64,000 nucleotides of DNA. It comes from Acidobacteriota bacterium (GTDB taxonomy: Bacteria; Acidobacteriota; Blastocatellia; Pyrinomonadales; Pyrinomonadaceae). The notes under the pieces were generated by a model. That model saw only the letters and a list, made by a program, of their open reading frames with translations, made no database searches and was not told the DNA's origin. The DNA lies in contig QQUY01000002.1 of assembly GCA_003385635.1 (NCBI GenBank), positions 186,001-250,000 on the forward strand, in the 5' to 3' direction. Position numbers and translations under genes: made by a program. This document shows, piece after piece, positions 476-39,651 of the stretch. Positions within the stretch are counted from its first letter, which is position 1, and each line of letters starts with the position of its first letter.

Positions 476-1399
476 ATGAGGAGAATTCTGGCTGCCGGTT
501 TGTTCACAGTGCTTTTGACGGCTCAATCGTTCGCTCACATTTCTTTGATCAAATCCGACAATGACGTTCGTGGGGAGCAGGACAATTTCCGGCTCGAAAA
601 GGTGAACGGAACCGTTCATGTTCTTTTCGGCAGGGGTGGCAACATAGGTGTTTCGTACGGTGTGGACGGATTGCTGACGATCGACACCCAGTTCGAGAAT
701 GTGGCCGACAATATCAAGGCACAGTTAAAGACGCTCGGGAGCGACACGCCAAAATTCGTATTCAACACGCACTGGCACGGAGATCATACAGGCGGAAACA
801 CTGTATTCGGGACCGACGCGATCATCGTCGCTCACGAAAACGTCAGGGAGAGGCTCTTGAGCACAGTGAATCCACGAAACAACCAGCCGCGTGAACCGAT
901 CTCAAAAGAGGGCGCGCCGATGATCACTTACTCAAAGGGGCTCTCGATCCACTTTAACGGTGAAGAGATCAAGGCCGTCCATTTCCCGAAGGGCCACACC
1001 GACGGAGACACGGCCGTCTTTTTCACGGGTTCCAACGTCGTGCACCTCGGTGACGATTTCTTTGTCGGGAGATTTCCTTTCGTCGATCTTGCAAGCGGAG
1101 GTTCGGTTGAAGGCCTCGTGATGAATATCGGGAAGATGATCCAGATGATACCGGCTGACGCTAAGATAATTCCCGGCCACGGTCCCGTTTCGACGCTTGA
1201 GGACCTGAAGGACTATCACGCAATGCTCGTGGAGACGACCGTCATTGTCAGGACCCACATGACGGAGGGCAAGACTCTCGACCAGATCAAAGCGGCGGGG
1301 CTGCCCGAGAAGTTCAAAGATGCCGGTTCCGGTTTCATCAACCAGGATGCGTGGATCGAGACGATCTACAGGAGCTATTCACCGAAGATGGAGGGATAG
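476..1399 (+). CDS. Exported metallo-beta-lactamase-fold hydrolase
   Basis: 307-residue exported MBL-fold protein. A signal peptide covers about residues 1-20. The zinc motif HWHGDH (residues 99-104) gives the HxHxDH signature; later metal ligands are the His in FPKGHTDGD and the His in IPGHGPV. The overall order fits the quinoprotein-relay/cyclase-like MBL group rather than a proven beta-lactamase, so the substrate is open. A strong ribosome-binding site (AGGGAGGAG, 463-472 region) precedes the ATG and fixes the start. It stands alone, with repeat-filled spacer downstream before the convergent serine hydrolase. Confidence 0.85.
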   Translation: MRRILAAGLFTVLLTAQSFAHISLIKSDNDVRGEQDNFRLEKVNGTVHVLFGRGGNIGVSYGVDGLLTIDTQFENVADNIKAQLKTLGSDTPKFVFNTHWHGDHTGGNTVFGTDAIIVAHENVRERLLSTVNPRNNQPREPISKEGAPMITYSKGLSIHFNGEEIKAVHFPKGHTDGDTAVFFTGSNVVHLGDDFFVGRFPFVDLASGGSVEGLVMNIGKMIQMIPADAKIIPGHGPVSTLEDLKDYHAMLVETTVIVRTHMTEGKTLDQIKAAGLPEKFKDAGSGFINQDAWIETIYRSYSPKMEG

Positions 1400-1418
1400 T
1401 GAATAGGAAATCGTCAAT

Positions 1419-1632
1419 GGAAAATTGGGAACTGAGAATTGAGGCAAAGTGTGAAAAGGGCAGTGTAACTTTGAATGTGAGAAGTAAGGTGGATTCTGAC
1501 GAAACCGATTCTGAATTGTTTTCCGAGAATTGCCCGCAGACAACCAGCGCTTGAAATGAAGGTACCTGCCTTGGAAACCTCAAGTGCCTGTTCTTGTTAC
1601 ATCGTTCTCAGTTCTCAACTTTCAATTCTCAA
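1419..1632. repeat. Pair of inverted period-7 tandem repeats
   Basis: Between two convergent genes. Four 7-bp units at 1419-1446 (ggaaaat, tgggaac, tgagaat, tgaggca) face four units at 1605-1632 (ttctcag, ttctcaa, ctttcaa, ttctcaa). The second cluster is close to the reverse complement of the first. No gene is visible in the gap. Confidence 0.6.
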
Positions 1633-1654
1633 TCATCCATTTATGATTCGCGAT

Positions 1655-3760
1655 TCACTGCCCGCGCTTCAAATCCGCAAGTATCTTTTTCGCGTTCTCC
1701 GCCGCGGGATACTTGTCGTCAATAGCCAGGGCTTTTTCGTAGAATTCGATCGCCTTTGCCTTGTCGCCCATACGATTGTAGAAGTCTCCGACGCTGTCAA
1801 ACAGGTTTGCCTCGTCCGGATACATCTTCACAGCGGTCAGCAACAGCCTGAGCCCTGCTTCCGGTCTTCCTACGGATGCGAGGTCATAGGCAACAGCGTT
1901 CAGCCCTCTTCTTCCAGCAGGACCGTTCGGATTTATTCCAGCCGACTTCTTTAAGAGAGACACGCCTTCTTCCTCATGCCCTGTGATCACAAGAAGAATT
2001 CCGTATAGCCCGTTGGTCTCGGCTGAAAGCGGGTAGAGATCCACGGCGGCTTTCCCGGCCTTCAATGCTCCCGGCACATCCCCTTTCTCAACACGTGAGC
2101 GGATAAGACGATCGAAGTCAGGTATCAGATCGGGATAGACGCTGGCGCCTTTAAAAGTCGATCTTAGTTTCGCGGAAATTTTGTCAAGATCCGTGTCCTC
2201 ATCGACAGAAAAACCGGTCTCCAGCTCCCTCGAAGTCCTTCTCCAGTCGAGTGCCCATTTCGAAGCCTTCTTTCTAAGATCCTCACTAAGCCTCACTCGT
2301 GCGGGCAAGCCCGCTTCAGATGCGATCACCGAGTAATCATCTAGCAACGCAGGCACACCTTTCTTGTAATAGTCGCCAAGGTCGCCGCCTTTCATACGGG
2401 CCATCGTGGAGGCCATGTGAGAAATGACCTTCACCAGCGGGCTCCCTGTTACAGGATGCCGTCCGTCACCAAGGGCGTGGCGGATGACATCCGGATCCGT
2501 GCTCTCGATCGAGTTGAGATACTCGAACGCCTTGGCCAGATCGTGTGCGTCCTCGGACATCGCCCGGCCGTGCTGGTCGAAATATCGCATTCCAAAGTCG
2601 AAGCCGCCGTCGAGGCCTTCAAGCCAGGCGTTCTCAGACGGCTCCGGAGCGTAATACTGGATCGACCAGGGCTCTCCCAGAACGATCTCAAAGACCTGCT
2701 GGACATAAGCCGAAGGGTTCGCAGGTTCGAAATTGATCGCAACAGCGGCCGAAAAATTCTTCTTCGGCACCGTCAGCAGGTAGGTCTTGGTTTCCTGCTG
2801 GGCGCCTCCGTGACCTACGACAAATCTTCCGTTCGCGGTGTTGGTACCCCAACCGTAGCCGTAGCCTATGTCGCGTCCAACTTTCGTGACCTGCGAGGTC
2901 CACATCTCAATGACGTTTTCCTGCTTCAGAATCTCCCCATTCCGGAGACCTTCTGAGAAACGAAGCATGTCGCCGACGGTTGATCTCGTTCCTCCCCCGG
3001 CAAATCTGCTGCTGATATCCACGAACTCCGAATTCTTGAGTTTTCCGTTGACCAGCTGATATCCGCGCACGCGATTCGGAATGATCTCGAGAGGATCGTC
3101 CAGACGTGTGGCTTTCATTCCAAGCGGCCCCCAGATGTTCTCTTTCATATACTCGCCGTAAGATTTACCGCTGGCACCTTCGATCACGGCACCGAGAAGG
3201 TTGAATCCGTAGCTGGAGTAGCTGTAGCGTGTGCCGGGTTCCGCAATGAGATCAAATTCCTCGAAGATCGCGATCGCTTCCCGAGTGGTCTTCGGCTCCT
3301 TGATCCTGCCCTCGACCAAGTAGTTCCTGTAATGAGAGATCCCTCCGATGTGCCCCAACAGCTGACGGACAGTTACGGGATACTTCTTCTTGGGAAAGTA
3401 CGGAACGTAAGCCTGTACCTCGGCATCAAGATCGATCTTTCCTTGTTCGACGAGCTTCAGGATTCCGACGGCGGTCATCGGCTTTGTAACCGAGGCCATA
3501 CGGTACGACGAATCGGCGGTAGCTGCCGTCTTGTTCTCAAAGTCGGCATAGCCAAATCCTTTGGTCCATACGAACCCATCCTTGCTGAAGCCGATCGAGA
3601 GTCCGACGGAACCATCCCGCTTCATCTGCGCCTCGACGAACTGCTCTATCCTTCGGATTTCGTCGGCGAAATCGGCCTTTGAGACGGACTGCGCAAGCAC
3701 GCATTGAGCAAGAAGCAAGACTAAAGGAAAGAGACCGGCGACTGGTTTTCTGAGGTTCAT
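1655..3760 (-). CDS. LACTB-like serine hydrolase with C-terminal TPR repeats
   Basis: 701-residue exported protein: signal peptide (1-24), beta-lactamase/class C penicillin-binding-protein fold (about 25-380), linker, then TPR-like helices (about 540-695). The catalytic SxxK motif is SVTK (Ser90, Lys93). The second motif reads YSSYGF instead of YxN, as in mitochondrial LACTB, and the stretch FAGGGTRSTVGDML is also LACTB-like. The third box is HGG. Such proteins are usually peptidases or esterases, not antibiotic resistance enzymes. The TPRs suggest a protein partner. One of seven serine hydrolases of this fold in the window. The start is the ATG at 3758-3760 with only a weak ribosome-binding site. 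Confidence 0.85.
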   Translation of the reverse strand: MNLRKPVAGLFPLVLLLAQCVLAQSVSKADFADEIRRIEQFVEAQMKRDGSVGLSIGFSKDGFVWTKGFGYADFENKTAATADSSYRMASVTKPMTAVGILKLVEQGKIDLDAEVQAYVPYFPKKKYPVTVRQLLGHIGGISHYRNYLVEGRIKEPKTTREAIAIFEEFDLIAEPGTRYSYSSYGFNLLGAVIEGASGKSYGEYMKENIWGPLGMKATRLDDPLEIIPNRVRGYQLVNGKLKNSEFVDISSRFAGGGTRSTVGDMLRFSEGLRNGEILKQENVIEMWTSQVTKVGRDIGYGYGWGTNTANGRFVVGHGGAQQETKTYLLTVPKKNFSAAVAINFEPANPSAYVQQVFEIVLGEPWSIQYYAPEPSENAWLEGLDGGFDFGMRYFDQHGRAMSEDAHDLAKAFEYLNSIESTDPDVIRHALGDGRHPVTGSPLVKVISHMASTMARMKGGDLGDYYKKGVPALLDDYSVIASEAGLPARVRLSEDLRKKASKWALDWRRTSRELETGFSVDEDTDLDKISAKLRSTFKGASVYPDLIPDFDRLIRSRVEKGDVPGALKAGKAAVDLYPLSAETNGLYGILLVITGHEEEGVSLLKKSAGINPNGPAGRRGLNAVAYDLASVGRPEAGLRLLLTAVKMYPDEANLFDSVGDFYNRMGDKAKAIEFYEKALAIDDKYPAAENAKKILADLKRGQ

Positions 3761-3787
3761 AGATCAATTTCCAACTTTGCCAAACAA

Positions 3788-3849
3788 GCAACGCGGAGCG
3801 TTGCGCTAAACCTCTATAGTGAAACCGTTTAGAGCAGCGCACAGCGCTG
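3788..3849. repeat. Two REP-like hairpins
   Basis: GCAACGC-gga-GCGTTGC (3788-3804) and CAGCGC-aca-GCGCTG (3835-3849), joined by a spacer containing accgtttagagcagcgc. The motif resembles the REP copies around the RAYT gene at 24.8 kb. It lies between the start of the LACTB-like gene and the end of the SnoaL-like gene. Confidence 0.55.
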
Positions 3850-3899: not shown

Positions 3900-4688
3900 C
3901 TAGCTTGAGATACCATTCAGAAGATCTAAATCTACCTGCCATTTCATCGTAGCTGAACGGTCCGTTAGTATCTGCAAGAAATTGAAGCGTTTGTCGGAGC
4001 TTGTTCGAATCACGCCGTAGCAATATTGGAATGACGTTGTACCGTCACATTTCGGCGTACCATCGAATGTGCGGGCCTCTTCCTTCAACTGCTTCCTTGC
4101 CAACGCCCCAGAAAGCGGAACCATACCCTCTCTGTAGATTCGCGCATTGTGAGAAAGGGACTTTAAAGGTGCTTCTACCGCTCCCCAGAAGCAACAAATG
4201 ATCCTTGGCAAAACTGACGGTTCTTCCGGATAGCGAAGCTTAAGAGAATGCCTTTCAGGTTTCTTGTGCGTAATTCCGATATCAAGTATCACCCTGAACT
4301 CACCGTTCTTCTGTTTCTTCCAGATCGAGACGTATTGACCGAACGCGACCGGTTTGCCGTCCTTTCCTTCCGGCCGGAATTCCCACGGACCTGTCGTATA
4401 GCCGATAGAGCCGTCAGCGCTGATATCGGCCCATATGGGTTCCCAGGAGAGAAGCGCGGGTGAATCCGGGCGCTTTGACCATACCTCCTTGGCATTCACC
4501 GCTTCCGGCTCGAATACGACGCCTTCGTCAGCCATGTAATAAAGGAAAGCCTCTTTCGTGCCTTTCTCGCGAGCCATCTGTGCAAAAGCCCGCTCTGTTT
4601 CCACGAGCTTTCTAAGATCAGGATTCTGTTGGGTAAACACCGAACCCGCGACGAACGTGACAAGGAAAAGGATTGCAAAGACTTTCAT
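3900..4688 (-). CDS. Exported SnoaL/DUF4440-like protein, C-terminal half doubtful
   Basis: 262 residues. A signal peptide (1-19) is followed by an NTF2/SnoaL-type domain (about 22-150). Its typical features are ERAFAQMAREKGTKEAFL, a buried ADEGVVFEP, TTGPWEFRP and WKKQKNGEFRVILDIG. These folds are often binding or cyclase domains with no fixed chemistry. The remaining residues contain one recognisable patch (NARIYREGMVPLSG, as in a second repeat of the same domain), but stretches such as RIICCFWG and FQYCYGVI look out of register. One or two frameshifts in the second repeat would explain this. The function is unknown. Confidence 0.55.
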   Translation of the reverse strand: MKVFAILFLVTFVAGSVFTQQNPDLRKLVETERAFAQMAREKGTKEAFLYYMADEGVVFEPEAVNAKEVWSKRPDSPALLSWEPIWADISADGSIGYTTGPWEFRPEGKDGKPVAFGQYVSIWKKQKNGEFRVILDIGITHKKPERHSLKLRYPEEPSVLPRIICCFWGAVEAPLKSLSHNARIYREGMVPLSGALARKQLKEEARTFDGTPKCDGTTSFQYCYGVIRTSSDKRFNFLQILTDRSATMKWQVDLDLLNGISS

Positions 4689-5255
4689 AGATTTGTTCTA
4701 TGCCCTTTCATATGCGTCTTGACCGGTGATTGGGCGGCAAAAGGATCCACGGTAGAAAAGTTAGCCGCGAAAAATCTGGAGGATCACACAGAATACACGG
4801 GATGTACGTTTCACCAACAGGGCGTTGCGATTCGGCTTTCTGGTTCTTTGTAAATCCCTCAGTTTCCTCTGTGGTAGAAACCTTATGGTCTCCTTGAAAC
4901 CTAGCATGAGAATCAACCACCAAGGACACAGATGCTCACACAGAGTACACGAAGGGAGACTCGAGACAAAAAAAGACCGAGTAGCCGAAATGAAACATCG
5001 GGTTACTCGGTTCTCAGTACTCTTTTTTAAGTACGCTTCTTGATGGGGGCAAGTCCGCCGCTAAACGGACAATGGTCGAATCGCGATCTTCTAGCGCTTC
5101 GCACTCTGACAGGCAAGGCTGCTTGTGCCTAGGTCATCAGACCCTCACTAGATCTACGTTTCACGATTCACTACTCACTACTCACTATTCACGATTTACG
5201 ATTCACGATTTTCCCGTTCTTCTTTGATACCTGATCCTTGATACCTGATACCTGA
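4689..5255. repeat. Gene-free gap with degenerate tandem repeats
   Basis: No convincing gene in 567 bp. The left part has patches of the CACAGA/CACGAAGG-type 9-bp repeat common in this window's spacers. 5047-5072 has a partial copy of the gcaagyccgccgctaaacgg hairpin element. 5161-5209 holds seven 7-bp units of tcacgat/tcactac type, and 5224-5258 holds five units of ttgatac/ctgatac type that run up to and over the aldolase stop codon. Confidence 0.7.
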
Positions 5256-6332
5256 CTACGCGACCGTAATCTCTTTAGTCAGATAGACGTCCTGGATCGA
5301 ATTCAGCAGTTCGACGCCTTCCGCAGTCGGCCGCTGGAAGGCCTTTCGACCCGAAATAAGTCCCATTCCGCCGCCACGCTTATTTACTACCGCAGTTCGA
5401 ACAGCAGCAGCGAGATCTCCGTCTCCCTTTGATTCGCCGCCGGAGTTGATCAATCCGCAGCGACCCATATAGTTGTTGGCCACCTGGTACCTTACGAGGT
5501 CGATCGGATTACTTGAGGTCAGTTCGTCGTATACCTTCGGATTTGTCTTCCCGTAGCTGCTTTCAACATTGAGCACGTTGTAGCCGCCGTTACGTGTCGG
5601 AAGCTTCTGCTTGATTATGTCCGCCTGAATGGTAACGCCGAGGTGGTTCGCCTGGCCTGTGAGGTCCGCAGCACTGTGCATGTCGCCTTCATCGGTCTTG
5701 AAGACCGGGTTCCGGAGGTAGCACCACAGAATGGTCGCCATTCCCAGCTCGTGCGCATATGCAAACGCTTCCGAGACCTCAATGATCTGCCGGGAGGATT
5801 CTTCGGAGCCGAAATAGATCGTAGCGCCGACCGCGACGGCCCCAAGGTCCTTCGCCTGATCGATCGTTCCGAACATCACCTGGTCGAACTTGTTCGGATA
5901 AGTCAGCAGCTCGTTGTGATTTATCTTCACTATGAAAGGGATCCTGTGGGCGTACTTCCTCGCCACCGACCCGAGCACGCCGAACGTAGAGGCCACAGCA
6001 TTGCATCCGCCTTCGATCGCTAGCTCGACTATGTTCTTAGGATCGAAAAGCTTCGGATTCGGAGCAAAACTCGCCCCGCCGGAGTGCTCTATTCCCTGGT
6101 CGACGGGAAGGATCGATAGATAGCCGGTTCCCGCAAGCCGTCCGTTGTCGAGGAGGGTCTGGATCGATCTGAGCACGGCTGGCCTCCGATCGGACTCGAT
6201 CCATACGCGGTCTACAAAATCGCCGCCCGGAACGTGCAATTGGTCTCTCGGAATCGTACTGCAGGTATGACCCAATAATGTCTCGGCGTCGTCGCCTAAA
6301 AGCTCCTGTATCTTACTGTAATCAACAGCCAT
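5256..6332 (-). CDS. fbaB: Class I fructose-bisphosphate aldolase (DhnA/FbaB type)
   Basis: 358 residues, the usual length of the bacterial DhnA/FbaB-type class I aldolase, which splits fructose 1,6-bisphosphate into dihydroxyacetone phosphate and glyceraldehyde 3-phosphate through a lysine Schiff base, in the cytoplasm. Supporting motifs are [40 protein letters not shown] (with the likely Schiff-base lysine) and [11 protein letters not shown], a phosphate-binding loop. No signal peptide. AGGAG seven bases before the ATG supports the start. It is transcribed alone, opposite to the next gene. Confidence 0.92.
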
Positions 6333-6623
6333 TCTGATTCTCCTGAAATAGATAGGAATTTTGTAATTGGTAAGGGATCGGGCACGGATTATAGCACAAG
6401 GCCCTGCAACCTAGGGACAGTGCTCGTCAGGAGGGTATCCCTGAGAACACAACGCTGTGACCTCGGTCGATCTCAGAAAGATCTGATCAGACGAAAACCT
6501 TGCCCGCGATTTAGCTTTTCGGATACTATCCGTGAACAGGTTCGGGGGGTCGGGGCCGGATAAGCGTAATTCGGACAAACCCCTTCCCGATGTTGCTCCC
6601 GATAGTTCGATACAGGCAAACCC

Positions 6624-8594
6624 ATGAACACTCCCTTTCTGCCGCGACCTCTTGTTTTTCTCGCGTCCCTTCTAGTTCTGTTCCAGGTTGCCACTGCTAA
6701 AGATGAGATCGTTTGGCGAACCGTCACTCAAGCCGAACTGGAGATGGCCAAACCCGTTGTCGATCCGGATGCCGATGCGGAGGCTATTTTCTGGGATGTG
6801 ACCCTCGACGATAAAAAGAAGAAGAGGATGACGCTTTACCACTATGTGAGGGTCAAGATATTTACCGAACGCGGCAGGGAAAAGTTCAGCAAGTTCGATA
6901 TCCCGTACTCAAAGCGGATCAAGATCGAGAACGTCGCGGCGAGGGTTGTAAAGCCCGACGGCACGATCATCAATGTCCAGAGAAGCGATATTTTTGATCG
7001 GGAGATCTTGAAGGCGGGGAAGGTGAAGATCTATGCGAAGTCATTCGCAGTCCCGGGAATCGAGCCGGGCGTGATCGTCGAGTACCAATACGAAGAGTCT
7101 AGAAAGGGTGATTCAGCAAGCGGCGAACGTCTCTTGTTTCAGAGGGACATACCGCTGCAGCGTGTTTCATATTACATCCGCCCCTACAAGGGGATGGATC
7201 TCCTGGCGGTCGCGTACAACATGACCGGAGATACACACTTTGTCGATGACAGCCAAAGAGAAGGCTTCAGGGTGCTCACCCGCACCAACGTTCCTGCAAT
7301 AAAGGAAGAACCTTATATGCCGCCCGACGATGAGGTGCGGAGATGGGTTTACCTTAGATATTCAGTGTTGGGTAATTACTTCGAATGGAGCCTACTGAAT
7401 CGAAGAGCGGCCGCCTGGTTCTTCAAAGCCAGCGAGCCGAATAAGAAGCTGACAGAACTGGCTAGGTCCGTAGCTTCGGGAGCCTCGACAGATGAAGAAA
7501 AGCTTAGGAAACTGTACCGCTATGCACAAGGTTCGATCAGGAATCTAACCTATGATCCGTCAGTGACTGAGGAAGAACTCGAGAAGATCAAGCTGGAAGA
7601 CGCAGAAGACGTACTGAAGCGGTCCGCAGGGACTGCCCCTTTCATCGATGTCCTTTTTGCCGCGCTTGCGAGGGCTCTCAACTTCGAAACGAACCTTGTT
7701 TTTACGGGGGACAGAAGTGAGCAGTTCTTCAATCCGGATAAGTACAACGATGCGGCATTCGTCCACCAATGCTGTATTGCAGTGAAAGTCGGGGAACTGT
7801 GGCAGTACTTTAATCCGGGAACGCCCTTTCTGCCTTTTGGAACTCTGGTTTGGTACGAGGAACACTCGAATGCGCTTCTGACCGGAAGGTACGGATTTCT
7901 GTGGAGGACAACCCGCTTGACCCCGCCCGAAGGATCGGAAGCAAAGAGGTGGGCGAGGCTTGTCTTATCAGACGAAGGCAGACTCGAGGGAACAATAAGG
8001 TACGAATACACGGGCCACCAGGCGATCGTTCGGCGAATGAACGGCTGGGACCAGTCGGAAGCAAAGCGCGAGGCTGAGTTTGTGCAGGACCTTAAAGAGC
8101 ACCTGTCAGAGATTGAGGTAAGCGGGTTCCGGATCGAGAACTTCTCTGACCCGTCGCTGCCACTCACCTACTCATTCCGAGTAAGGATCCCTAACTACGC
8201 GCAAAGGACCGGCAAACGTATGTTTTTGCGGCCTGGATTCTTCGAATACGGTGCGAAAGCCGTCTTTCCGTCCGAGAACAGGTCGTATGATATCTACTTC
8301 CCTTATCCATGGTCGGAATCGGATGATATCGAGATCGTTTATCCTGAAGGATTCGAGCCCGAGAACATCGAGTCGCCCGGAGAGGTCACCGACCGCAGCG
8401 GAATATCCAGCCAGAAATTTAACGTGAGCATCGATGAGGCGGAAAGGAAGCTAATGTACAAGCGGACTTTTCATTTCGGAAGGAAAAACATCTTCTTCCG
8501 AACCAACGCGTATCCAGCATTGAAGAAGATGTTTGATCTGTTCAACACGAATGATCAACATTCGGTGGCGCTGAGGAGGATCGAGGTGCCTTGA
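6624..8594 (+). CDS. Exported DUF3857 / transglutaminase-like protein, catalytic residues apparently lost
   Basis: 656 residues with a signal peptide (1-25). A DUF3857-type beta domain (about 55-230, with VKIFTERGREKFSKFDIPYS and VVKPDGTIINVQ) is followed by a transglutaminase-like core (about 280-430) and a C-terminal beta domain. In active relatives a conserved Cys sits where this protein has RSAGTAPFIDVLFAALARAL, so the Cys is replaced. The His region reads HQCCIAVKVGELWQYFNPG with no clear Asp. It may bind peptide or glycan without cleaving it. The start has a weak ribosome-binding site. It is followed by a strong shared terminator. Confidence 0.7.
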   Translation: MNTPFLPRPLVFLASLLVLFQVATAKDEIVWRTVTQAELEMAKPVVDPDADAEAIFWDVTLDDKKKKRMTLYHYVRVKIFTERGREKFSKFDIPYSKRIKIENVAARVVKPDGTIINVQRSDIFDREILKAGKVKIYAKSFAVPGIEPGVIVEYQYEESRKGDSASGERLLFQRDIPLQRVSYYIRPYKGMDLLAVAYNMTGDTHFVDDSQREGFRVLTRTNVPAIKEEPYMPPDDEVRRWVYLRYSVLGNYFEWSLLNRRAAAWFFKASEPNKKLTELARSVASGASTDEEKLRKLYRYAQGSIRNLTYDPSVTEEELEKIKLEDAEDVLKRSAGTAPFIDVLFAALARALNFETNLVFTGDRSEQFFNPDKYNDAAFVHQCCIAVKVGELWQYFNPGTPFLPFGTLVWYEEHSNALLTGRYGFLWRTTRLTPPEGSEAKRWARLVLSDEGRLEGTIRYEYTGHQAIVRRMNGWDQSEAKREAEFVQDLKEHLSEIEVSGFRIENFSDPSLPLTYSFRVRIPNYAQRTGKRMFLRPGFFEYGAKAVFPSENRSYDIYFPYPWSESDDIEIVYPEGFEPENIESPGEVTDRSGISSQKFNVSIDEAERKLMYKRTFHFGRKNIFFRTNAYPALKKMFDLFNTNDQHSVALRRIEVP

Positions 8595-34401: not shown

Positions 34402-34409
34402 ATTGTTTT
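34402..34409. repeat. Target-site duplication, left copy
   Basis: attgtttt immediately outside the left inverted repeat. The identical octamer is at 37610-37617 outside the right one. Eight base pairs is the usual duplication for IS1595-family insertions. Confidence 0.92.
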
Positions 34410-34433
34410 GGGAATTATATACTTTACACACAC
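34410..34433. repeat. Left terminal inverted repeat
   Basis: 24 bp beginning GGGAATTATATACTT. It differs from the right repeat at one base (T instead of G at position 16), which changes TTGACA to TTTACA. It contains the last codons and stop of vsr. Confidence 0.92.
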
Positions 34434-34840
34434 TCGGAATCGGTTAGTTCGCGAATGCCCGTGATAATCCGGTCGCCGTCCTTCAGCTCGCATTCCCAGA
34501 ACCGCATCACCCGCCAACCCTTTTCTTCCAGCTCCTCCGTCACCCGCTTGTCCCTCGCCTTGTTCCTTGACAGTTTGTCCTTCCAATAGGCTTTTGAGGA
34601 CTTTGGAGCGCGGTAACAGTTTGGGCATCCGTGCCAAAAACAGCCGTCCAAGAACACGGCGAGTTTGGCTTTTGGAAACGCGAAATCCGGTTTGCCCGGA
34701 AGCGGCAGATGCCGCCTCCAACCCGTGACCTTATTCGCTCGAAACAGCGAAGCGATCTTAGCTTCCGTGCTTGCGTTCCCTTTGGACTTCACCTGAGCCA
34801 TTATCCGGGACCGCTCTGTCTGAGAAACCGTGTCAGTCAT
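34424..34840 (-). CDS. vsr: Very short patch repair (Vsr) DNA mismatch endonuclease
   Basis: 138 residues, the normal Vsr length. Vsr nicks beside T:G mismatches that arise when 5-methylcytosine deaminates, and so protects the methylase's recognition sites. Motifs: MAQVKSKGNASTE (N-terminal), GKPDFAFPKAKLAVFLDGCFWHGCPNCY (catalytic Asp and zinc-binding His/Cys), and GWRVMRFWECEL. It overlaps the endonuclease gene by 8 bp, so it is translationally coupled. The last codons (SECV, stop TAA) are encoded in the left terminal repeat of the mobile element, which fixes the C-terminus to the element boundary. Confidence 0.95.
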   Translation of the reverse strand: MTDTVSQTERSRIMAQVKSKGNASTEAKIASLFRANKVTGWRRHLPLPGKPDFAFPKAKLAVFLDGCFWHGCPNCYRAPKSSKAYWKDKLSRNKARDKRVTEELEEKGWRVMRFWECELKDGDRIITGIRELTDSECV

Positions 34841-35588
34841 CGGCCTCTTCCGTTTCGACGGCTTCGATCCAGTTGTCGTTATATCGAATCAGGCGCAGAA
34901 CGTGATGCTCTTCGATAATCCCCGGATTCTGCTTGATCCGAAACTTGTAGGCGGACGCGGGGACAGTGTGTATGACAGTGAATTGCGCTCCGTGAGGTTG
35001 CCAAGTGAAACAGTGCCGGTCCGATTCTCTGTCAAAGCCCTCGAAGTTCCTGTTCTTGTTCAGCCGCCATTCGTACTCCGCCGGAATGAATCGGGCGGCC
35101 TCGCTCTCGAACATAGCAAACTCCAGAGTTCCCATACTCCGAATGAACACAAAGATTCGCAGATCGTCGTGGTGATGGAGCGACTCGTCAACTCTGGCAT
35201 TCCAAACGTCCAACACGGCCCGTCCCGTCCGTTGTATGTCCTCAAACACATCGTGAACCCCGGCTGAATAAAGCGGATTGTTTCGGCCTGAAATCAACCG
35301 CACGGACTTTTGCCTGAACGGATACTTGGCTTGCACTGTTTTGACAGTCCAAGCGCAGCCGTCCCATACGACATCCGCAAGACCGAGAGGACTGGCCCGA
35401 TGATCGCCGCTGATCGCGGACGCGAAAATACTCGCGAAGTCGTCTCCAGTGATATTGGAGTGACCGATCGCGAGCCTGTGAATGATTCGCTTGCCAATTT
35501 CGATGGCTAGTTCGTGGGAGAGTTCTCCGAGGCCGTGGGGACAGTTACGCCGCTCTCGTTGCCCTCTCAGTCTGATTCTGTTCGGCAT
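34833..35588 (-). CDS. Putative type II restriction endonuclease of the mobile R-M module
   Basis: 251 residues, family not recognised from sequence. The call rests mainly on position: it sits between an m5C methyltransferase gene (44-bp overlap) and vsr (8-bp overlap). A PD-(D/E)xK-like core is plausible in SPLGLADVVWDGCAWTVKTV: an Asp, then a strand with xVK, with Thr in place of the acidic residue. DDLRIFVFIRS and FTWQPHGAQFTVIHTVPA are further beta strands. The large overlap with the methylase gene raises the possibility of a later start. Recognition site unknown. A specificity or methylation-dependent nuclease role cannot be excluded. Confidence 0.65.
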   Translation of the reverse strand: MPNRIRLRGQRERRNCPHGLGELSHELAIEIGKRIIHRLAIGHSNITGDDFASIFASAISGDHRASPLGLADVVWDGCAWTVKTVQAKYPFRQKSVRLISGRNNPLYSAGVHDVFEDIQRTGRAVLDVWNARVDESLHHHDDLRIFVFIRSMGTLEFAMFESEAARFIPAEYEWRLNKNRNFEGFDRESDRHCFTWQPHGAQFTVIHTVPASAYKFRIKQNPGIIEEHHVLRLIRYNDNWIEAVETEEADD

Positions 35589-36612
35589 AGATGACCTTTT
35601 CGAGTATCGCCTTTACGATAGGTACGGGAACGGCGTTTCCGGCCTGTTTCCGCGTCTGAGAATCGTTGCATACTATCTCAAAGGAATCGGGGAAGCCTTG
35701 AAGGCGGAGCATCTCTCGCGGGCTAAGTCGCCGCTCTCCGTCCACTAACAGATAGTTGTAGGAAGCTCCGGCCCTCAACGCGCAGGAAAAAGGGTGGCTG
35801 GATACGTTGCCGGACTTGTTCTCGTGCCAGATCATCGGAGACTTTTTCGCCTTGTGTTTCGTGTGTCGGGACTTGCGAATCCTCTCCGAAACGTAATGCC
35901 TTTCGTCAGGCTTCTTTTCGAGAATATCCGAAAGCGGTTTCATTTTCTTGTCGCCGGACGGGAACTCGAACGGCTTTGCGGAATCCCGGAAGCCGACAAT
36001 GAACACTCGCTCCCGTTTCTGCGGAAGCCCGAAATCCTTCGCGTTCAACACTTGATACTCGACATCGTAGCCGAGCTCATCCTCAAGAATCTCGATGATC
36101 CGCTCGAAGGTCTTTCCTTTGTTGTGGGAAACCAACTGCTTCACGTTCTCAAGCACGAACGCCTTCGGCTTTTTCGCTTTGAGAATCTTTGCGATGTCGA
36201 AGAAGAGCGTTCCCCTGGCATCTCCGAAGCCTTCGCGATTGCCGATGATGCTGAACGGTTGACACGGAAATCCCGCGAATAAAATGTCAAAATCCGGGAC
36301 GTTTTTCATCTGCAACCGGGAAACGTCCCCTTCAGGCGTGATCCCGTAATTATGCTCGTACGCCTTCCTCGCTTCCTTGTCGATGTCGCAAGCGAAGACG
36401 CACTTCAGCCCCAGTTCGTCGGCGGCCTGATGAAAGCCGCCGATCCCGCAGAACAGATCCGCGTAGGTCAAGGCGGACTTGTCGCCCCAATAATCGCCAA
36501 GTTCAAGTTGAGGCTGTTTCTCTGATCGAGCAACAGCCTTTACCACCTGATCGAATTTGCCGAATAACGGGTTTGTTTTTACAAGCTCCAGTTTCTTTGG
36601 CTTCTTAGGCAT
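35545..36612 (-). CDS. dcm: DNA (cytosine-5) methyltransferase
   Basis: 355 residues with all main C5-methyltransferase motifs in order: I, ADLFCGIGGFHQA (AdoMet loop); IV, AGFPCQPFS with catalytic Cys117; VI, VLENVKQL; VIII, QKRERVFIVG; IX, RRLSPREMLRLQGFP; X, KQAGNAVPVPI. The target-recognition region lies between VIII and IX (about 225-290). It protects sites cut by the partner endonuclease. The start codon overlaps the transposase stop by 8 bp, so expression depends on transposase transcription. The recognised sequence cannot be read from the protein. Confidence 0.95.
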   Translation of the reverse strand: MPKKPKKLELVKTNPLFGKFDQVVKAVARSEKQPQLELGDYWGDKSALTYADLFCGIGGFHQAADELGLKCVFACDIDKEARKAYEHNYGITPEGDVSRLQMKNVPDFDILFAGFPCQPFSIIGNREGFGDARGTLFFDIAKILKAKKPKAFVLENVKQLVSHNKGKTFERIIEILEDELGYDVEYQVLNAKDFGLPQKRERVFIVGFRDSAKPFEFPSGDKKMKPLSDILEKKPDERHYVSERIRKSRHTKHKAKKSPMIWHENKSGNVSSHPFSCALRAGASYNYLLVDGERRLSPREMLRLQGFPDSFEIVCNDSQTRKQAGNAVPVPIVKAILEKVIYAEQNQTERATRAA

Positions 36613-37561
36613 AATCAGTAACTTTCGTCAACGTCTTGTAAGTGAGCCTTCGTCCTTCCATTCCGGCGACGAAAGCGCGAACGGCTGTGATGCCGCAGTC
36701 CTCGCCTTCCGTGTCAAACGCGGGAAGTTCTTTCGTGTTCTGCTTGAACACAAACTCGTCAACGTAGCGCGACAAATGCTTCTTGCTGATCTTGTGGAAT
36801 GTGCCGACGTGGGCCCGTTTGAGGATAGCCCAAAAACTCTCGATGCCGTTGGTGTGAGCGTCTCCGACAACGTACTGGCCTCCACTGTGATTTACGGCTG
36901 TTCTTCGGTAATCGAAAAGCCCATAGTAACCGCGATTGTCATCCGTGTACAGGGTGGAACCAAAGGCGACATTCTGTCGCACGGCTGAATGCAGATTGAC
37001 GTGATCCACGCCGCTAATAACCTGCGCCCTAACCTCGCCGTTTCGGTGTCGCGCCCCGAACACTATCGACTTTCCCACGCCGCCGCGCCCCATATTCAGC
37101 TTCTTGTTAGCGTGCTTGTTCTTCTCTTTGCCGCCAATGTAGGTTTCGTCGGCTTCGACAACGCCGGAAAGCAACCCCGAAGACTTGCAGGCTTCGCGGA
37201 TTCGGTGAGCCATAAACCAAGCCGACTTCTGCGTCACGCCGATCTCTTTGGACAACTGGATCGAGGAGATGCTTTTGCGCGAGACGGTCATCAGATACAT
37301 CGCATAGAGCCATTTGCGAAGACTGATCTTGGAGTCCTCCATCACGGTGCCGGTCCGAATCGAGAATTGCTTGCGGCAACCCTTGCAGGTGTAGATTTTT
37401 CCGTCGCGAATCTTCCACACTTCCTCGTGCCCGCAATGAATGCATAAAATGCCTTCGGGCCATCGGGCGGATTCGAGATACTCTCTGGCTGTCTTCTCGT
37501 CGGGGAAACGCTCAAAGAACTCCATCGCGCTCGGTTGCTTTTGCATCTTTTGGCTCTTCAT
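36605..37561 (-). CDS. IS1595-family (ISXO2-like) transposase
   Basis: 318 residues. An N-terminal zinc ribbon (CIHCGHEEVWKI and CKGCRKQFSIRTGT, about 40-73) precedes the ISXO2-like catalytic domain. Likely acidic residues are in VVEADETYIGG, LYTDDNRGYYG and THTNGIESFW. The gene is full length with no visible lesion. The ATG is at 37559-37561, only 48 bp from the right end. The promoter boxes overlap the terminal repeat and predict a leaderless or nearly leaderless mRNA. It overlaps the methylase gene downstream. Confidence 0.95.
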   Translation of the reverse strand: MKSQKMQKQPSAMEFFERFPDEKTAREYLESARWPEGILCIHCGHEEVWKIRDGKIYTCKGCRKQFSIRTGTVMEDSKISLRKWLYAMYLMTVSRKSISSIQLSKEIGVTQKSAWFMAHRIREACKSSGLLSGVVEADETYIGGKEKNKHANKKLNMGRGGVGKSIVFGARHRNGEVRAQVISGVDHVNLHSAVRQNVAFGSTLYTDDNRGYYGLFDYRRTAVNHSGGQYVVGDAHTNGIESFWAILKRAHVGTFHKISKKHLSRYVDEFVFKQNTKELPAFDTEGEDCGITAVRAFVAGMEGRRLTYKTLTKVTDYA

Positions 37562-37568
37562 ACTAAGA

Positions 37569-37596
37569 ATTATATATCAAAAATCGTGTGTGTCAA
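37569..37596 (-). promoter_or_regulatory. Sigma-70-type promoter in the right terminal repeat
   Basis: On the minus strand TTGACA (37591-37596) and TATAAT (37569-37574) are both perfect consensus, 16 bp apart. The -35 box lies within the terminal inverted repeat. The predicted transcript start falls at about 37562, next to the transposase ATG, so the mRNA would be leaderless. It would drive all four genes. Confidence 0.75.
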
Positions 37597-37609
37597 GTAT
37601 ATAATTCCC
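37586..37609. repeat. Right terminal inverted repeat
   Basis: Inverted partner of 34410-34433, 23 of 24 bases identical. Contains the -35 element of the operon promoter. Confidence 0.92.
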
Positions 37610-37617
37610 ATTGTTTT
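37610..37617. repeat. Target-site duplication, right copy
   Basis: attgtttt, identical to 34402-34409. Confidence 0.92.
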
Positions 37618-39002: not shown

Positions 39003-39322
39003 TGAGCAGGGAACATTGACCAGGGACCAGTGGACATTGGTCAGGGATCAGGGATCAGGTAATCGGGAAAGTTTTTGATGGCGTGGGACTTCTTTCTTTG
39101 CCCGCTGGTCCCAAGTAGATGGTCCTTAACCAATGGTCAATGCTCCCCGGTCAATGTCCACTGGTCCTTGGTCCCTGGTCAATGTCCACTGGTCACTTGT
39201 CCTTGGTCCCTGGTCAATGCTCCCTGGTCAATGTCCACTGGTCCTTGGTCAATGCTCCCTGTTCCCTGTTCCCTGTTCCCTGTTCCCTGGTCCCTGGTCA
39301 CTGGTCCTTGTCCAATGTCAGC
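39003..39322. repeat. Large inverted pair of period-7 arrays, TGGTCNN
   Basis: 39003-39058 has eight 7-bp units (tgaccag, ggaccag, tggacat and variants). 39134-39322 has 27 contiguous units (tggtcaa, tgtccac, tggtccc, tgctccc, tgttccc and variants). The two parts are largely reverse complements and could form long stems. The array extends into the last codons of the SnoaL-like gene, whose stop is at 39298. Confidence 0.9.
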
Positions 39323-39651
39323 GGTCCCTGGTCGACGTTGTAGTATGAGACGATCTCTTTCAGCAGTCCGTTCTCAGCATAAAGCCACTCGGTGACCTCC
39401 ATTGCGAATGCCGGATTCGTGATCTTATACCTGATGCAGGCACGTTCTCCCTCAAAGATCTCGTCGTGAAATTCGAACTCGTTTCCGAGGAACTTGTCCC
39501 GGTTCGAACCCGCTATCTCCAGATAAACCTCTTTTCCGCTGATCGTGCCGTATGGGCTTGTGTGTGAGAAATCATCGGAGAGCGGGAGGTCAAGGTAGTC
39601 TCCGCTCTCCCATTTCGCAAACCAGTCGCGTACAAGTTCCTCAATCGTCAT
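39298..39651 (-). CDS. Small SnoaL-like (NTF2 fold) protein
   Basis: 117 residues without a signal peptide: MTIEELVRDWFAKWESGDY, FSHTSPYGTISGKEVYLE and VTEWLYAENGLLKEIVSYYN fit the SnoaL/NTF2-like fold of small cyclase or isomerase-like proteins. The last dozen residues (VDQGPLTLDKDQ) are encoded by the adjacent 7-bp repeat array, so the natural C-terminus may have been replaced. The stop of the DUF4199 gene lies four bases before this start, so the two are cotranscribed. Confidence 0.75.
   Translation of the reverse strand: MTIEELVRDWFAKWESGDYLDLPLSDDFSHTSPYGTISGKEVYLEIAGSNRDKFLGNEFEFHDEIFEGERACIRYKITNPAFAMEVTEWLYAENGLLKEIVSYYNVDQGPLTLDKDQ

Follow-up and report, generated by a model that had tools for sequence, protein, structure and literature searches.

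Background

The IS1595 family of insertion sequences (ISs) is characterized by an 8-bp target duplication. Some of its members are transporter ISs, which carry passenger genes between their ends, and the list of such passengers that one review gives is said to go back to Siguier et al. 2009. Here, we discuss an IS of this family in a 64,000-nucleotide stretch of an Acidobacteriota genome (contig QQUY01000002.1, positions 186,001 to 250,000; hereafter the window), where it occupies positions 34410-37609 and holds a predicted restriction-modification (R-M) gene set together with a vsr gene. In the excerpted passages of the review, transporter IS passengers are given as regulators in IS1595 (ISNha5), methyltransferases in IS1380 (IS220), and resistance genes in IS481 (PMC11891212). 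The element in the window shares with IS1595 transporter ISs such as ISNha5 the transposase family, the terminal repeats, and the placement of passengers inside the IS. It differs in that its passengers form an R-M-Vsr set that continues the transposase gene, with a transposase-linked peptide in the methyltransferase, and in that the elements related to it hold other R-M and defence-like sets.

Two other kinds of mobile element offer a comparison, again as described in excerpts of the papers cited. Tn7-like transposons frequently have R-M modules among their cargo, along with further defence systems (PMC8649781). They resemble the window element as transposons with R-M and defence cargo, but have a median size of 14-29 kb and several core genes, as opposed to one transposase and a few further genes in 3.2 kb. 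The PaeR7I system is an example of IS-linked R-M movement in which restriction activity is selected for successful integration (PMC3031569); there, ISs likewise drive the movement of R-M genes, but through composite structures or co-integrates at IS copies, whereas the R-M genes of the window are contained in one IS unit. Transfer of R-M systems between genomes is frequent, but they have been reported as rare in plasmids and prophages (PMC4176335). Among the matches listed from the open-access literature, taken as titles, starts of abstracts, and passages, there was no recognizable description of R-M genes inside an IS1595 element.

Structure and insertion site of the element

The element spans 3200 bp and is structurally complete. 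Its terminal inverted repeats (TIRs), at 34410-34433 on the plus strand (passenger-side end) and 37586-37609 on the minus strand (transposase-side end), match at 23 of 24 positions, or over 25 nt at 96% when the flanking T/A pair is counted. They are bordered by an exact 8-bp target-site duplication (TSD; attgtttt, 8/8) at 34402-34409 and 37610-37617. A chance origin of ends and duplication was ruled out by a control in which none of 2,000,000 random position pairs from the window, spaced 0.8-5 kb apart, reached 18/24 plus 7/8; the best random pair gave 16/24 and 5/8, compared with 23/24 and 8/8 at the element. Four full-length open reading frames (ORFs), all on the minus strand, fill the space between the ends. 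In order, these are the transposase (36605-37561), a 5-methylcytosine (m5C) DNA methyltransferase (35545-36612), a PD-(D/E)XK-like putative endonuclease (34833-35588), and a Vsr-type endonuclease (34424-34840), with overlaps of 8, 44, and 8 bp, and the final 10 bases of vsr lie inside the passenger-side TIR. The first-pass annotation had reported the coordinates of the element and its duplication, the 24-bp repeats, the 8-bp duplication, the four genes, and their overlaps, all of which proved exact. The zinc-ribbon DDE transposase, the terminal repeats, and the 8-bp duplication place the element in the IS1595 family, and with three passengers inside its ends and one TSD it is a transporter IS. 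A composite transposon was rejected, as a single transposase lies between one pair of TIRs and the genome contains no second IS copy; a search of the genome returned one full copy of the element and, besides it, only a 26-bp match. The G+C content of the element (0.533) is close to that of the remaining window (0.534).

The element sits between two FtsX/MacB-like permease genes. In same-genus genomes where both flanking genes were found, the site is empty in four of four, with the permease genes as direct neighbours about 10 to 510 bp apart, which leaves no room for either the element or the R-M genes. In a fifth same-genus genome (G442) the contig ends before the second permease gene, and another, G446, gave weak matches only. 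Among 396 genomes sampled across the phylum, the endonuclease itself is present in 1, namely that of the window. Comparison of empty and filled sites in relatives had been proposed as a check at the first pass, and it shows neither the IS nor the R-M genes in any of the four comparable genomes. A separate arrival of the R-M genes was rejected because the TSD encloses the whole unit and the sites of the relatives are empty.

Reading inward from the transposase-side end is a promoter-like TTGACA-16-TATAAT sequence (37569-37596, minus strand) that matches at 12 of 12 positions and whose -35 box falls within the terminal repeat. Across 42 elements examined, 21 have a match of at least 10/12 within their first 120 bases, and in 20 of these the -35 box is near the element end. 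The gene string therefore probably brings its own promoter.

Predicted functions of the four proteins

The 318-residue transposase matches NF033547 at 186 bits (cut-off 75) and PF12762 and PF12760 above their cut-offs, and the motifs looked for are present. The methyltransferase (355 aa) matches TIGR00675 at 313 bits and PDLC03272 at 370 bits, its best solved relative is M.HhaI (216 bits), and catalytic motifs I, IV, VI, VIII, and X are all found. The Vsr protein (138 aa) scores 117 bits against TIGR00632 (cut-off 97.85) and 58 against PF03852 (cut-off 27), retains the conserved segments, and has 1cw0 as its nearest match in the PDB (E 2.6e-20). Judged from their sequences, the former is a DNA methyltransferase of the type II R-M kind with its catalytic motifs, and the latter is a member of the Vsr endonuclease family of T:G mismatch enzymes.

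The third protein (251 aa) is less readily placed. Pfam, NCBIfam, and PADLOC contained nothing that it matched up to E 1, searches of the PDB with the single sequence and with a profile gave nothing better than E 1.5, and a regular-expression scan for an endonuclease active site found no match. Its AlphaFold2 model is of good quality by its scores (pLDDT 89.8, pTM 0.83), and in a structural ranking the restriction enzymes ThaI (Z 8.8) and HinP1I (Z 8.0) come first and second. They are followed mostly by other restriction enzymes, e.g., Eco15I, NhoI, DpnI, EcoRV, and HincII; Holliday-junction resolvases and MutH rank further down. An alignment of 25 endonuclease relatives (L024, L030, L026, L028, and L029 are not among them) shows a conserved core in which the candidate active residues D72 and K83 are near-invariant. 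The evidence that this is the cognate endonuclease consists of the PD-(D/E)XK-like fold and the adjacency of a methyltransferase in 27 of 29 related loci, and comes without a family match. With moderate confidence, the model suggests a PD-(D/E)XK restriction enzyme.

The known systems nearest to these proteins are M.HhaI, as the closest solved methyltransferase, and ThaI and HinP1I, as the closest endonuclease folds; the window endonuclease differs from the latter two in having no significant sequence match to any solved structure. ThaI cuts CGCG, and both HinP1I and HhaI act at GCGC. By analogy with these sites, a G/C-only four-base recognition site such as GCGC could be put forward as a weak guess. 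Outside the element, CATG and CTAG occur in the window at 0.41 and 0.65 of expectation.

Relatives of the endonuclease and homologous elements

A pattern scan of bacterial genomes for the endonuclease gave 27 loci, and viral contigs added 2 more, for a total of 29. A strong methyltransferase match adjoins the endonuclease in 27 of these, the exceptions being L027, with only a short and weak match, and L029, with none. In 26 loci there is no transposase in the surrounding DNA examined, while in the other three (L005, L010, and L031) an IS1595 transposase lies upstream of the methyltransferase. The element of L005, from Nitrospirales (Nitrospirota), spans 3965-6740 and has an 8/8 duplication, CACTCGAC; that of L031, on an IMG/VR viral contig, spans 1029-3798 with a 7/8 duplication. 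L010, from Limisphaerales (Verrucomicrobiota), is a 3016-bp contig that is the element itself and hence has no flanks. None of the three gave a vsr match. Vsr relatives were found near three further endonuclease loci (L011, L014, and L025), and L014 has the order methyltransferase, endonuclease, vsr on one strand with no transposase match, so the R-M-Vsr set also exists outside the element. Another observation on these loci, made by eye, is that the methyltransferase relative at L025:4963-5871 has, together with its upstream sequence, a helix-turn-helix (HTH)-like N-terminal extension, possibly a fused controller domain. The genome that holds L010 (G468) contains 71 matches to the IS1595 transposase, many of them short or with stops, and appears heavily invaded.

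Spread of the R-M genes on plasmids or phages was considered and set aside, as the endonuclease had no match on plasmids and a single match (33%) among phage records. Scans of viral contigs with two methyltransferases returned 4 distant matches (34-40%) and only the query itself, respectively. Relatives of the transposase do occur on plasmids, in 46 records, and 2 phage records matched. None of the 6 plasmid records inspected is annotated with R-M genes, and neighbours there include an AAA ATPase and a PIN protein.

Exchange of passengers within the element

If transposase and R-M genes had descended together, their trees would be expected to agree. The transposases of the four R-M-bearing elements do not form a clade (approximately unbiased test, p-AU 6e-58; L010 is represented by a partial row, with 48% of the columns filled). 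In the endonuclease tree (27 rows, with L026, L028, and L029 dropped as short) and the methyltransferase tree (28 rows), the four element loci group with two IS-less loci, L004 and L011, and a clade of the four elements alone is rejected in both (p-AU 0.003 and 0.0005, respectively). No IS1595-like ends were found around L011, which is chromosomal, and because it nests among the element loci, both trees require at least two changes. A history in which the R-M genes were captured once and from then on inherited strictly together with the IS was rejected on these grounds.

A direct comparison comes from L010 and L191, two elements in the same genome. They share 81% DNA identity over bases 1-1100 of L010, which comprise the end, the transposase, and the start of a small ORF. 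Beyond base 1100 there is no blastn match below E 0.06 until the far terminal repeat, where 18 of 22 bases are identical. A 47-bp match between the two elements pairs opposite ends. The passengers in between are R-M genes in L010 and a Panacea-domain gene in L191. From the conflict between the trees and from this pair, with a shared core and different passengers, it appears that cassettes swap inside the element, and the point at which identity stops would place the slot between the small transposase-linked ORF and the far end. The first-pass annotation had tied the spread of the R-M genes to their own transposase. The tie to one transposase lineage is not a tight one, given the absence of a transposase clade and the different passengers of the otherwise close L010 and L191. 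Its view of a compact mobile unit was borne out by the complete structure, the free-standing occurrence of the methyltransferase-endonuclease pair, the empty sites in relatives, and the homologous elements elsewhere. It had also held that R-M homologues outside the repeats would speak against such a unit. These are in fact the majority (26 of 29), which means no more than that the captured genes came from an ordinary chromosomal R-M family.

The transposase-linked peptide

In L191 and L010 the small ORF that follows the transposase is separate (MSTRKVNPLYGKFNDLVDSL... and MRARKVNPLYGKFNEVVDSL...). The window has a matching peptide, NPLFGKFDQVVKAVAR, inside the N-terminal extension of the methyltransferase, which has 53 residues ahead of motif I; the corresponding feature, TNPLFGKFDQVVKAVARSEK, lies at 36517-36576 on the minus strand. 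Of 24 relatives that lack an IS transposase, 19 have no more than 22 residues before motif I, and in the remaining five the peptide score does not exceed 6.0. The window, L010, L191, L196, L095, and L093 score 41-52 for the peptide motif, compared with at most 18.4 in random 300-bp segments (n=255). Loci above this maximum that did not seed the motif also include L070 (26.2) and L176 (21.8), while L005 scores 14.6. In L095 and L093 a similar peptide stands at the start of N6/N4 methyltransferases, and 28 residues of the L031 extension match a small ORF that stands by itself in L094, the sister of L031 by transposase. The small ORF of L005 also overlaps the methyltransferase gene, but in a different reading frame.

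Passengers in related elements

To look beyond this R-M family, elements were sampled through the transposase alone. Matches were found in 21 of 99 genomes of the taxonomic family at E <= 1e-40 and in 29 of 396 genomes of the phylum at E <= 1e-60; the latter gave 38 listed places, of which 33 were added and 2 were already included. Further sources were 11 viral-contig loci and five genomes of endonuclease loci. Of 85 transposase loci, mostly from these searches, 44 passed the criteria for ends. Left out of these were L077 (ends not beginning with GG, 6.4 kb, judged false), L101 (on the same contig as L100), and the window, L005, and L031, which had been given or found through the endonuclease. 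Among the remaining 39 elements, 35 have a TSD of at least 7/8 (L065, L081, L157, and L168 have only 4-5/8), 38 are 1.9-4.6 kb long, and 38 carry at least one other ORF of at least 100 aa, L089 being a plain IS.

These passenger ORFs, called mechanically, number 69, of which 56 were scanned; the 13 dropped were of 100-142 aa, except for one of 165. Pfam matches among the 56 include N6/N4 methyltransferases (7), a C5 methyltransferase (1), HNH (4), DUF3800 (3), and AIPR (2), and single cases among the 25 listed of 41 families include GmrSD_N, AAA_21, Panacea, RelA_SpoT, M78, and a HEPN-type domain. Seven of the 39 elements, all with a TSD of 8/8, carry R-M or methyltransferase-nuclease sets of other kinds than that of the window. 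These are a methyltransferase with the type II enzyme PDLC03487 (L095), a C5-like methyltransferase with an HNH protein (L162), methyltransferase-HNH fusions (L177 and L193), a methyltransferase with PDLC03583 at E 1.5e-7 (L179), a methyltransferase with a borderline Mrr_cat match of 20.8 against a cut-off of 21 (L186), and a methyltransferase split over two frames, the second of which also weakly matches HNH-bearing Cas9 models (L195). Three more loci have incomplete or imperfect ends: L063, from the window's taxonomic family, and L093 pair a methyltransferase with an MvaI/BcnI-family enzyme, and L166 has a methyltransferase-HNH fusion. With the window's own set included, there are about seven kinds. 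The search for the same gene order and for other R-M sets that was proposed at the first pass has thus produced three homologous elements as well as these other kinds. Its description of an IS1595 element carrying an R-M system is correct, but the case is not unique, as R-M genes recur in the clade beside other defence and toxin-antitoxin-like genes.

The ORFs that directly flank the 39 elements, one per side, served as a control (73 ORFs). PADLOC matched 74 families here, and the 25 that were listed include no methyltransferase model. All but two of these 25 are single-member, so that single methyltransferase cases are possible among the other 49; mad2, which is matched by the L162 methyltransferase as well, is matched by one control ORF. 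Seven of the 56 passengers match type II methyltransferase models, and a one-sided Fisher test against 0, 1, or 2 of 73 gives p 0.002, 0.012, or 0.035. The flanks also hold some defence genes (Cmr3, Cmr4, mads, and BrxHI-type), and a general enrichment of defence among passengers is therefore not established.

Several passengers are worth recording in their own right. L170 is an IS1595-type element with AAA_21 and DUF3226 (OLD/TOPRIM-like) passengers, and L080, L067, L187, L069, and L191 between them have GmrSD_N, AIPR (two), HTH plus M78, and Panacea passengers. By their domains, these six are candidates for small mobile defence or toxin-antitoxin units. L169 and L189 (TSD 8/8) and L157 (5/8) have passenger proteins without a Pfam match where scanned, possibly new defence genes. 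Outside the element, the window is repetitive at 39075-39395, where all three plus-strand frames read as repeated Gly/Pro/Trp/Ser motifs, and this looks like a short tandem repeat.

Interpretation and alternatives

The explanation that best accounts for the locus is a passenger-bearing IS1595-family element, i.e., a transporter IS or tiny unit transposon, that was inserted whole with its R-M-Vsr operon, and we put its probability at roughly 85%. The ends, the duplication, the full-length ORFs, the empty sites in relatives, and the related elements are direct observations. In such an element the inward promoter would drive all four genes, from the transposase through to vsr, as a single operon with translational coupling, expressed wherever the element lands. 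The transposase would move the unit and generate the 8-bp duplications, and the methyltransferase, made before the endonuclease, would modify the new host first. The R-M pair would then restrict foreign DNA and might act against cells that lose it, and the T:G mismatches that form when m5C deaminates at modified sites would be repaired by Vsr. The R-M module would have been captured from an ordinary chromosomal R-M family into the slot between the small transposase-linked ORF and the far terminal repeat, and in the window copy the methyltransferase N-terminus would carry a peptide of the small-ORF kind.

A number of points count against parts of this account. The protein roles are predictions from sequence and structure. 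Foldseek alone gave the endonuclease model no restriction-enzyme match, and none of any kind, below E 1e-3, and the structural ranking tool itself notes that folds without kinship can give Z scores close to 8-9. GCGC stands at 0.91 of expected in the window and is not depleted, which supports neither GCGC specificity nor long residence. With a single full copy in the genome, recent transposition there has only the intact TSD in its favour. Promoter-like sites in the region number 2 against a shuffle mean of 2.2, so that only the perfect match stands out. As for the peptide, the score test is weak, given that the L031 extension itself scores 6.2, below the random maximum of 18.4; the motif was built from short sequences, and five of the six top rows are its seeds, leaving only L010 as independent. 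Neither L005 nor L010 has the peptide as an in-frame part of the methyltransferase.

Of the alternatives, an orphan or decaying R-M-Vsr passenger, in which the methyltransferase is perhaps active and the endonuclease inactive, is unlikely, though the most probable of the three. Decay is seen in related copies: the transposase of L010 is frame-shifted and its methyltransferase frame lacks an ATG, GTG, or TTG start before motif I, and the L195 methyltransferase is split. The window copy, by contrast, has four full-length ORFs with the motifs of transposase, methyltransferase, and Vsr in place, and its endonuclease, which shares 61% identity with the L031 enzyme, retains the columns that are invariant in the family. 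It is considerably less probable that the main role for which the methyltransferase is retained is control over transposition or establishment, exerted by methylating the element or its ends, rather than defence. The overlap of its gene with that of the transposase and the transposase-adjacent peptide in its product would fit this role, but the guessed site, GCGC, is absent from the 24-bp repeat, the methyltransferase comes with an endonuclease, and relatives have passengers of other kinds in the same position. Finally, R-M genes that were resident first, with IS ends added around them or an IS inserted alongside by chance, would suit the 26 of 29 loci without a transposase but are already contradicted by the data, as one TSD flanks all 3200 bp, four of four relatives lack both IS and R-M genes, vsr runs into the TIR, the transposase and methyltransferase genes overlap, and L005, L010, and L031 keep the same core order.

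Implications

Beyond the whole-inserted element itself, the IS1595 clade may be a dedicated vehicle for small defence or addiction operons, a broader proposal that we hold at slightly less than even odds. Its fixed core would be the end with the promoter, the transposase, and the coupled small ORF, followed by a swappable slot before the other end. The slot would take about seven R-M kinds as well as abortive-infection-like and toxin-antitoxin-like genes, in units of 2-4.6 kb, and would provide an unrecorded route of R-M spread. The fusion of the small-ORF peptide to methyltransferases would yield chimeric enzymes, which could interact with the transposase.

The element is real, and copies in its clade often carry exchangeable passengers, R-M sets among them, a more general finding than the first-pass annotation held. 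IS-sized R-M units in several phyla, with cassettes that swap, would be a concrete vehicle for the movement of R-M systems. Such units would be small enough for direct tests of whether restriction stabilizes insertions and of how an IS core acquires and exchanges cargo, and the cassette slot would be a place to look for new defence genes.

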